From positions 1-21,181 of the IMG/VR virus record IMGVR_UViG_3300028925_003875: 21,181 bases of DNA. The stretch is one strand, 5' to 3'. Shown piece by piece: positions 14,517 to 16,968 of the stretch. Every line of letters begins with the position of its first letter. Within the stretch, counting starts at the first letter, position 1. This DNA comes from a virus. A program made the translations under genes and the position numbers. The notes below the pieces were generated by a model. It ran no database searches, was not told the origin of the DNA, and worked only from the letters and a program-made list of their open reading frames with translations.

Positions 14517-14978
14517 TTAACGCCCCGAATCTTGTTTTCCACCACCACCGTTACCGGATAAGTCTTTCATATCAGTAGTAGCAAGGAACCGTTGTGATCT
14601 AGTATCCCCAGGAAGTAATTCACCTTGAATAGATGTTACATCGGCAGCACTAGCAGCACGAGCAGTATTAGGAGTAGCTGACGTTTCATTCTTATCTACT
14701 ACAGAATCCATAGATTCATTACTAGTAATAGTACGAACACCACCAGCAGAATTAGTTCCTCCTGGCGTTGCTATAGCATCAATCTGACTACGAGTAACAC
14801 TCATAGATGTTGAAGGACTACTATCAGTTAATAGAGTAGATAAAATCTCACCATAAGTTTGCATACCACGTTTCCGTAGAATCCGTGTTAGGTGATAGCG
14901 ATTAGGCGAACGACCACTAAGTAATGTAGCATTACTAGTATCTTCACCAATAGTTCCATTAGGTGCGTATGTAGTCAT
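14517..14978 (-). CDS. Unknown protein, first gene of the late operon
   Basis: The protein has 153 residues. I choose ATG 14978, which has GGAG nine bases upstream; an ATG five codons earlier overlaps that site. Residues 20-50 form the only clearly ordered part (RSPNRYHLTRILRKRGMQTYG), basic and helical, which could contact DNA or RNA. The remainder is Ser/Thr/Ala/Gly-rich and ends in a Gly patch (GNGGGGKQ). It carries the TPNTAR motif shared with the following gene. It is the promoter-proximal gene of the leftward operon. No family is recognised. Confidence 0.6.
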   Translation of the reverse strand: MTTYAPNGTIGEDTSNATLLSGRSPNRYHLTRILRKRGMQTYGEILSTLLTDSSPSTSMSVTRSQIDAIATPGGTNSAGGVRTITSNESMDSVVDKNETSATPNTARAASAADVTSIQGELLPGDTRSQRFLATTDMKDLSGNGGGGKQDSGR

Positions 14979-15079
14979 AACTCTTATCTCCACTTAGTTG
15001 TTTTGTCAGTGACTATGAATGAAAAGACACACATCTATTTAAGATTATGTATCGGACGGCCCTGTTGAAGTTAAGAATT

Positions 15080-15108
15080 AAAATAACATGATTTAGTATA
15101 TATGTCAA
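15080..15108 (-). promoter_or_regulatory. Leftward sigma70-type promoter for the late operon
   Basis: On the minus strand a perfect TTGACA (15108-15103) is followed after 17 nt by TATTTT (15085-15080, 4 of 6 matches to TATAAT). The flanks are very A/T rich. Transcription would start near 15073 and leave a leader of about 95 nt before ATG 14978. It is the only clear leftward promoter seen upstream of this operon. Confidence 0.5.
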
Positions 15109-15135
15109 CCCTTAATTTATAATATAACTAATTTA

Positions 15136-15155
15136 CGGGCGACGAAAGTCGCCCG
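15136..15155 (+). other. 8-bp perfect hairpin with GAAA loop
   Basis: CGGGCGAC (15136-15143) and GTCGCCCG (15148-15155) flank GAAA. Read on the plus strand this is a GNRA tetraloop on a G/C stem, which suggests an RNA made rightward. Read leftward it lies just upstream of the late promoter and could insulate it. No T-run follows on the plus strand; the minus-strand side is merely A/T rich. It stands out in sequence that is otherwise A/T rich. Confidence 0.6.
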
Positions 15156-15255
15156 ATCTCGCATCTACTAACTATTAATAACCATCAACAACTATTACCA
15201 TTAATAAAAAATATACAGATAACATATCAATATCTAGACGGTCTTATTGTTTTAT

Positions 15256-15364
15256 GGGGGGCATTAACTGTTACTAACTTTTCTTAATGGGTGGGATGAG
15301 TGATCTGATACAAGCAAGAAAGATATTGACCTAAACACCATGTTTTAAATGATAGGGGGCATTA
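15256..15364 (+). repeat. Pair of G-run direct repeats in the control region
   Basis: GGGGGGCATTA (15256-15266) and GGGGGCATTA (15355-15364) recur about 99 nt apart, and each is preceded by TGTTTTA (2 nt and 8 nt before the G-run, respectively). A GGGTGGG lies between them near 15290. A C-run near 15382-15388 gives ATGGGGGGG on the other strand. A TTGACC at 15326 lies 16 nt from AATGAT and could be a weak rightward promoter just before the second repeat. The repeats may be protein-binding sites or phage promoters. Nothing here encodes a plausible gene. Confidence 0.4.
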
Positions 15365-15419
15365 GTTGTACCTAGACCCATCCCCCCCATCGTATGTATG
15401 TGACATCAACATGACATTA

Positions 15420-15625
15420 ACACCTAGCTATGACCATCTAAGCATGAGTTAGGTGTATATGATGACAGTTATCATTATCTATCTAACTATCCAATGATAT
15501 CAATGCGTAACAATAACAGAGGAGTATGGTATAGATGTATAGAACCATACACAAGGTATAGTATATGATACTACATATAGGGTTCATCCGTATGTTGGAG
15601 CACTACATAGAGTATAGGTCTATAC
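15420..15625. promoter_or_regulatory. Cluster of inverted repeats in the A/T-rich divergent region
   Basis: Four inverted repeats lie within about 200 nt: ACACCTA/TAGGTGT (15420-15426 and 15450-15456); GTATGGT/ACCATAC (15524-15530 and 15544-15550); TAGTAT-ATG-ATACTA (15559-15573); and GTATAG-GT-CTATAC (15612-15625). The last three share the TATAG/GTATA word. Such clusters suit operators for a dimeric repressor, or a replication origin. There is no ORF here. The 14979-15660 region as a whole contains the late promoter, one hairpin, the G-run repeats and this cluster. Confidence 0.4.
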
Positions 15626-15660
15626 ATATATAGTATGCATTTCGTGTGTGCTACTGTAGT

Positions 15661-16455
15661 ATAAGGGAACTGATTGCGTTCCCTTATGAACCCTTGCAAC
15701 CAACTACTCGTAGTTGGAGACGATAACCTGTCGCGTCAGGTTAAACACGCTAGAATAGAGAACGCACAACAAGAGGTTGTCCGTCTGATTGCCAAGTACT
15801 GTCGTGGCAATCATGCTGCGGCTACTAACACGCCCGACCGTAGATAAAGGTTGCCTAGACATTGCAGTAAATTGGCTTAAGAGTTAGATGCCAATTGACT
15901 ACACTGGGCAACACTACAAGAAACGAGGAGCTATGCCTCGTTTCTCTATATCTCTTGGTCTTATTGGTATATGCGCCCTCTCAAGAAGGGCTAATACCCT
16001 TTACGACATTGGCTCTGTCAATGGCTCGCTTGTCGCTCGGCACTAAGACAGCGAGTCCTCTTCGAGTCCCGTACTGAAAACCGGGTGGCTGGTAAAGAGA
16101 CACTGTAACGCTCAGGAGTTTGGTAGACGTTCTATACCGTAACAACTATTAGTTCGCTCGTAGCAAAGCACCGTCCACTCGTTCCTCGTGTACTATATTT
16201 GTGAGAAAGAAACAAATATTCCTTTACTTCGCTGCTAATACTGGACAGTCGCTCGATGGAACTCGCGCCATTACTACTCCCAACACCGACTGCTTAACAC
16301 CGAGTCGCAACATCGGCTCACGCCGCCGAGTGGCGAGAGGACCACTGTACAGTTTGTCGCAGCCTTATACCTCGCTAGTCTCTTTAGCAGCCGCCAACGG
16401 TTTTCAGTTCTCGTGTGTTGTATTAAGCATTAGAAACTCAACCTCTCTGGTTGGG
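15661..16455 (+). ncRNA. Large structured non-coding RNA candidate (about 0.8 kb)
   Basis: The hand-counted GC rises from 34% (15061-15660) to 48% (15661-16440) exactly where a series of perfect hairpins begins. Stems include 15661-15670/15678-15687 (10 bp), 15700-15706/15711-15717 (7), 15724-15730/15737-15743 (7), 15766-15770/15776-15780 (5) and 15786-15794/15805-15813 (9). Others are 15850-15855/15907-15912 enclosing 15870-15876/15890-15896 (6 and 7), 15919-15928/15936-15945 (10), 15975-15979/15987-15991 (5) and 16025-16034/16047-16055 (9 bp, one bulge). The series continues with 16195-16202/16212-16219 (8), 16246-16251/16287-16292 (6), 16317-16324/16332-16339 (7 with an A-A mismatch) and 16437-16443/16449-16455 (7). 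No reading frame with a ribosome binding site covers the region. Size, complexity and phage location recall the GOLLD and ROOL RNAs, but I cannot confirm membership. Both ends are approximate. Confidence 0.6.
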
Positions 16456-16483
16456 TGGTGCTTCTTCGGAAAGGATTTATCTC

Positions 16484-16918
16484 ATGTCTAACATTAACCC
16501 TCTCACACCTGATACTACATTTACCAATCAGTTTTCATTCACGGTTGAGGAGCTTGGCTTAGTTATCAACATTGATCTTGCTACTCCTAAGTTCTTAGCT
16601 CTTCTCTTCATCGAAGATGTCCTCACTTGGGACGCGATGATCCAACTAGCTGATGCTGCTGCAACTGCTGATCACTATATCTATAGTGTTCACTTCACTG
16701 CGAGTGGTACTACTCACGACCGTCTTGCTATCTTCACCAATACAGATGCAGCAACAACAGCCATCAAACATCTCATTGCTGGATGTACGGCTGACAAACA
16801 ATCAGGCTTCAAGAAATGGTTCCCCTTTGCACGAACAATCAAAGGGACCGAGACTCAACTGTTCCATAAGCGTAGCCATCGGATAGATGACTCTAACGTT
16901 GAAGCTATACAATACTAA
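16484..16918 (+). CDS. Unknown 144-residue protein downstream of the structured RNA
   Basis: ATG 16484 has AAAGGA eight bases upstream; an earlier in-frame ATG at 16451 lies in the RNA's last hairpin and is not used as the start here. The N-terminal 30 residues are Thr/Phe-rich and strand-like (TFTNQFSFTVEELGLVINID). A helix-rich middle follows (FLALLFIEDVLTWDAMIQLA), then a strand-like part (YIYSVHFTAS) and a basic C-terminal stretch (KQSGFKKWFPFARTIKG, later HKRSHR). The basic tail could contact nucleic acid. The gene shares a transcription unit with the RNA and is closed by a strong terminator, so the two may act together; that is inference. No family is recognised. Confidence 0.7.
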   Translation: MSNINPLTPDTTFTNQFSFTVEELGLVINIDLATPKFLALLFIEDVLTWDAMIQLADAAATADHYIYSVHFTASGTTHDRLAIFTNTDAATTAIKHLIAGCTADKQSGFKKWFPFARTIKGTETQLFHKRSHRIDDSNVEAIQY

Positions 16919-16926
16919 TATCTCAT

Positions 16927-16968
16927 CTCGTGGATAGGGCATCTCGCTCTATCCACGAGGTTTTTTTT
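16927..16968 (+). terminator. Strong rho-independent terminator
   Basis: CTCGTGGATAG (16927-16937) pairs perfectly with CTATCCACGAG (16949-16959). The inner GGC/GCT can extend the stem to about 14 pairs with one wobble. Eight T residues follow at 16961-16968. It begins 9 nt after the stop of the 144-residue gene and ends the RNA-plus-protein unit. Confidence 0.93.

Follow-up and report, generated by a model that had tools for sequence, protein, structure and literature searches.

A large structured non-coding region upstream of the first early gene in an IMG/VR virus

GOLLD RNAs are frequently found in or near a tRNA island and form a homo-oligomeric cage. Large structured RNAs are rare to our knowledge, and we know of no established function for the giant phage RNAs GOLLD and ROOL. 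With regard to size, many GOLLD members exceed 800 nt (PMC12286853). The sequence considered here, referred to as the window, is the complete 21,181-base IMG/VR record IMGVR_UViG_3300028925_003875, in which a segment of about 0.8 kb (15661-16455) constitutes a real and statistically strong feature belonging to no known family. A first-pass annotation made from the sequence had described this segment as a large ornate non-coding RNA in a phage intergenic region. The results reported below uphold its non-coding nature, its size and its strong structure, and show that it is without a match in Rfam. The interest of the region lies in its size, its long-range architecture and the rapid exchange observed at the same slot in related phages.

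Setting and coding potential of the region

The late genes of this virus, including those for terminase, a P22-type portal, the major capsid protein and an adaptor, lie on the minus strand, and the early genes are found on the plus strand from 16484 onwards. The structured region sits between these two blocks, directly upstream of early gene 1, and is non-coding. Its GC content is 48.4%, compared with 34.3% in the 600 nt to its left (15061-15660), which reproduces by recomputation a jump from 34% to 48% that had previously been counted by hand.

The absence of a credible ORF, also stated in the first-pass annotation, is borne out by two measures: the frames open in the region have codon scores of -0.19 to -0.96 bits per codon, all below those of the phage genes (mostly 0 to 0.5, with a few small early genes slightly negative, the lowest being -0.15), and the longest open stretch, at 109 codons, is shorter than the 95% point of shuffled sequences (137 codons). 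A hidden protein in 15661-16455 is therefore ruled out by codon usage and frame lengths. ARAGORN found neither tRNA nor tmRNA genes in the 21-kb window, and there was no Rfam tRNA match either.

Early gene 1 is without a match in PHROG, Pfam or PADLOC, and recovered no relatives when used as a search probe. No strong terminator is predicted between 15650 and 16484, the sole strong one being located past gene 1 (Table 1); a weak terminator-like hairpin is present at 16436-16456. The terminal hairpin of the region adjoins the ribosome-binding site of gene 1.

Table 1. Predicted features of the structured region and its surroundings (window coordinates)
Feature	Position	Strand	Details
Early-promoter-like region P1	15289-15359	+	GGGTGGGATGAGTGATCT ... 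ATGTTTTAAATGATAGGGGG; position conserved in relatives
G-run/C-run hairpin	15355-15387	+	GGGGG...CCCCCC after P1; counterparts in most relatives
Second early-promoter-like region	15620-15651	+	AT-rich stretch, then TTTCGTGTGTGC at 15640-15651
5' module	15660-15720	+	Hairpin 1 (15660-15688, 11 bp) and hairpin 2 (15700-15717, 7 bp)
Hairpin 3	15724-15743	+	7 bp, perfect
676-nt multibranched domain	15744-16419	+	Long-range closing stem 15744-15754/16409-16419
Branched sub-domain	15842-15953 (15836-15960 in the wider delimitation)	+	Stems 15850-15858/15904-15912 and 15863-15876/15890-15903; perfect hairpin 15919-15945
Long-range helix	16073-16408	+	16073-16101/16378-16408, 11+17 bp; encloses stem 16231-16271/16330-16363
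3' hairpin	16425-16463	+	7+8 bp; contains CTCTCTGGTTGGGTG, like the relatives' pre-gene-1 element TGCTTCTG.TGTTGGGTG
Early gene 1	16484-16918	+	144 aa; ribosome-binding site GGAAAGGA; by eye like the relatives' first early gene
Strong intrinsic terminator	16925-16961	+	3' of gene 1; terminator prediction

Predicted fold and its statistical support

The anatomy listed in Table 1 is a prediction from one sequence, obtained by combining the minimum-energy fold with pair probabilities. For 15655-16480 (826 nt) the minimum free energy is -279.1 kcal/mol, corresponding to a z-score of -5.66 against 20 shuffles and -4.97 against 60, and the fold comprises 27 stems of at least 5 bp, most of which have a mean pair probability above 0.7. 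Seven perfect Watson-Crick hairpins of at least 7 bp are found in these 826 nt (15661-15687, 15700-15717, 15724-15743, 15786-15813, 15870-15896, 15919-15945 and 16195-16219), as against a mean of 0.51 and a maximum of 4 in shuffles (n=300), and an average of 0.70 with the same maximum of 4 in other segments of the contig. The 200-nt segment 15801-16000 has a z-score of -5.42, the lowest among the 210 examined along the contig.

The earlier count of at least thirteen local helices was right; as for their arrangement as a tandem hairpin array, this holds for 15661-15945, together with one further hairpin at 16195-16219, but not for the remainder of the 3' part, since 15950-16455 has few local hairpins and its 200-nt segments score like shuffles (z -1.4 to +2.0). 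The excess stability of the 3' part is instead due to the long-range inverted repeat 16073-16101/16378-16408, a feature absent from the first-pass annotation. The arms of the resulting 28-bp helix are ~280 nt apart; the repeat has an E-value of 1.8e-4 in self-comparison, and the helix scores 18, a value equalled by 0 of 400 shuffles, which reach at most 15.5. The sub-domain that it closes (16073-16408) has a z-score of -3.86, and the 676-nt domain folded alone one of -5.96, with a mean pair probability of 0.92 for its closing stem. Along 16378-16419 the 3' strand is predicted to pair almost without interruption with two separate 5' strands.

Related phages and the early leader slot

About 20 distinct relatives covering the locus (designated L and a number) were compared, the probes being the terminase, the DUF932 protein, an early protein and the non-coding motif CATAACTCTT...TTGTTTTGTCAGTGRC. 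This motif (14971-15015) marks the beginning of the late operon, L004 and L009 carry it at 93-98% identity, and a pattern search found it in 19 IMG/VR stretches, making it a useful handle on the phage group; a search of GTDB genomes for a host, with the conserved motif and the terminase, yielded nothing. Between the divergent operons, a perfect hairpin, CGGGCGACGAAAGTCGCCCG, is located at 15136-15155, and most relatives have a strongly conserved counterpart, CGGGCAACGCAGTTGCCCG.

The relatives share a common order consisting of minus-strand late genes, a GGGGGGAYGATAGATCT promoter-like block, GTTTT.AAA, a G-run, a leader, a small first gene and a terminator. At the place equivalent to P1 they have GGGGGGAYGATAGATCT ... 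GTTTT.AAA..GGGGGGAG, and their block GGGGGGAYGATAGATCT ... GTTTT.AAA ... GGGGGG..CCCCCC, corresponding to 15289-15387, is conserved; judging from these motifs, P1 is a putative promoter, and the whole stretch resembles an early promoter of unusual type, with a G-run/C-run hairpin where the transcript would begin. The motif at 15640-15651 is directly 5' of hairpin 1 with the next gene start 830 nt downstream, and in several relatives this motif, GTGTGTGC, follows an AT-rich stretch ~40-100 nt 5' of early genes. Further upstream, 15529-15580 aligns to positions 4069-4120 of L015 (E 1.5e-6), and an AT-rich imperfect inverted repeat (15530-15632; 29-nt, 79%) overlaps this L015-conserved stretch ahead of the structured region.

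Because the flanking early signals and the gene order match those of the relatives, the region occupies the early leader slot, its position between early-promoter-type signals and gene 1 being that of the relatives' leaders. The conserved motif and gene 1 are 1474 nt apart here and about 370-830 nt apart in relatives, whose leaders are mostly short. The leader of L100 (323 nt with about ten hairpins) has a z-score of -5.0 and that of L103 one of -2.9, and most of the others are not unusually structured (z ~0 to -2). L100 and L103 agree at 98.6% of positions ahead of the hairpin segment of the leader and at 96.6% beyond it, and the segment itself (~184 and 60 nt, respectively) is unrelated. Wholly different hairpin segments between near-identical flanks indicate that the slot turns over fast. 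Such a wholesale exchange between near-identical phages is unusual and suggests that either an RNA is under diversifying selection here or palindromes are being actively generated. Hairpins with similar arms (CCAACT/AGTTGG and AACCTG/CAGGTT) recur across different phages. The short motif CTCGTTCCTCG, which occurs once in the RNA of the window (16178-16188), is also found in L100, L103 and L106, either in the leader or past a terminator, and in none of the other relatives compared for it.

Homologue searches, as proposed in the first-pass annotation, gave candidates for the first 60 nt of the region and none for the 676-nt domain, of which no homologue was found in phages, plasmids, IMG/VR or the relatives. 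The RNA was left unmatched by blastn against phages, plasmids and all relatives, and IMG/VR pattern scans with pieces of it gave 0 matches apart from a single chance match, in an unrelated contig and within a coding gene; the short element preceding gene 1, used as a pattern, returned mostly unrelated contigs. Rfam gave no match at gathering score, nor at E-values up to 10 with permissive filters, and none to the relatives' leaders. The Rfam covariance models speak strongly against GOLLD, ROOL, OLE, HEARO and group I and II introns.

The first 60 nt may correspond to a two-hairpin leader element common to L097, L100 and L106. A covariance model with short calibration, built from L100 and L106 only, scores L097 at 34.6 bits and has its best match in the window at 15659-15720 (22.4 bits, E 2.7e-5), the next reaching 13.8 bits. 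For comparison, reverse-strand matches of the same model in L100 and L106 score 25.2 and 18.6 bits, and are explained by hairpin 1 being palindromic. Paired changes are seen at seven positions and in both stems among the four real alignment rows (e.g., T-A, C-G and A-T at one pair); the alignment scored for covariation held two additional, non-independent reverse-strand rows, so that its totals overstate the evidence. In L097 the element precedes the second promoter-like region rather than following it. By these sequence comparisons, homology with the relatives' element is suggested for the first 60 nt only.

Possible nature of the region and comparison with known systems

We infer transcription, its strand and start site, and all functions discussed here; for the plus strand as the presumed RNA strand, position is the chief argument. 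Our preferred reading, held tentatively and at somewhat less than even confidence, is that an early phage transcript carries the region as a long structured 5' leader, which acts mainly in cis. It is favoured by the strong terminator being found only after gene 1, by the last hairpin lying beside the ribosome-binding site, and by the leaders of the relatives, at least that of L100 being similarly built at the equivalent place. The folding excess, the hairpin and long-range-helix statistics, the well-defined pairing, the absence of a coding signal, the GTGTGTGC motif just upstream and the covariance-model match with its paired changes also count in its favour. An early promoter near 15620-15650 would give rise to the transcript, and the polymerase would then cross ~800 nt that fold as RNA (three hairpins at the 5' end, the 676-nt domain and a last hairpin before the ribosome-binding site), the transcript including gene 1 and ending at the terminator beyond it. 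The folds could guard the 5' end against RNases, set the output of gene 1 or sustain the polymerase; of these, 5'-end protection or translation control may rank above processivity. Against a leader stand the size of the 676-nt domain, large for a plain leader, the modest structure of most relatives' leaders, the modest 22-bit match, which the reverse-strand matches in L100 and L106 rival, the position of the element ahead of the second promoter-like region in L097, and the equal folding of both strands with a G-U-poor 5' third.

This last observation also fits an unlikely alternative, in which short perfect palindromes accumulate and turn over intergenically at the DNA level and RNA structure is a by-product. 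Such an array may have arisen by template switching or from small mobile hairpins, and its palindromes may be protein-binding or replication sites, or functionless. The reverse complement folds as well as the plus strand (z -5.21 and -4.97, respectively), meaning that the fold alone cannot tell the RNA strand, and G-U pairs make up only 2 of 87 (2.3%) in the 5' 301 nt; strand-symmetric folds and a near-absence of G-U pairs in the 5' part therefore also fit palindromes selected as DNA. The exchanged hairpin segment of L100 and L103, the similar-armed hairpins of different phages and the CTCGTTCCTCG motif common to L100, L103 and L106 are likewise in its favour. It accounts poorly for the 3' part, where the widely spaced arms of the 28-bp helix and the stem 16231-16271/16330-16363 are not local palindromes and where the G-U share, at 11.5%, is ordinary. 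For 16073-16408 the plus-strand ensemble is somewhat better defined (centroid -92 of -110 kcal/mol) than that of the minus strand (-76 of -120 kcal/mol).

Roughly equal in likelihood to the palindrome array, and thus also improbable, is a free-standing large non-coding RNA of a new class, produced from the early promoter, cut or terminated near 16463 and acting in trans, where it may bind a host protein or ribosomes or self-assemble as GOLLD and ROOL do. Its size and branching are like those of GOLLD and ROOL, the 676-nt domain is closed by long-range pairing, and the weak terminator-like hairpin could supply an end. Further evidence comes from the second early operon of the relatives, which often opens with a NADAR-domain gene (L017, L027, L117) or alternatively with a SLOG-family gene (L015/L099; L027 has one too), suggesting that swappable functions reside here which could counter host defences; a counter-defence role of the early region is plausible, the evidence being association with these genes. 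On the other hand, ornate RNA classes are known by their wide conservation, whereas the domain is found in no relative and has no sequence homologue in phages, plasmids or IMG/VR, and the 21-kb window is without a tRNA island. The first-pass annotation had likewise proposed an ornate non-coding RNA: its non-coding and structured character stands, and a separate gene is a less likely reading. The slot, in which relatives have short, variable and sometimes hairpin-rich leaders, runs from a promoter-type region to gene 1 with no strong terminator. Still more doubtful is the fuller version of this proposal, in which ornate phage RNAs of large size, forming a class of their own, would be made at the earliest stage of infection from a fast-diversifying slot and act in trans on the host.

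A diverged GOLLD, ROOL, OLE, HEARO or group I or II intron beyond the reach of Rfam is very improbable, having only size and phage setting in its favour, and the specific check for GOLLD, ROOL, HEARO and OLE put forward in the first-pass annotation came back empty even at an E-value of 10.

A structured leader is a more probable reading of the region than a known giant RNA. What it would have in common with the element of L100, L106 and L097 is an AAGGG..CCCTT hairpin, a 14-15 nt linker and a CCAACT..AGTTGG hairpin located 5' of gene 1, but the leaders of those phages are far shorter or otherwise ordered and are without the 676-nt domain. In contrast with GOLLD, there is here no Rfam match, no tRNA island nearby and no 3' half conserved in relatives, and the location is an early region before a protein gene; size, phage origin, elaborate branching and long-range closing stems (predicted in our case) are common to both. 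ROOL (PMC12286853) differs in the same absence here of an Rfam match and a tRNA island and in that homologues of the present RNA were not found, and resembles it in its large size, its many stems, its phage origin and its lack of coding content. Linked to a defined gene and promoter, a 0.8-kb RNA expressed early would be more amenable to testing than either GOLLD or ROOL.
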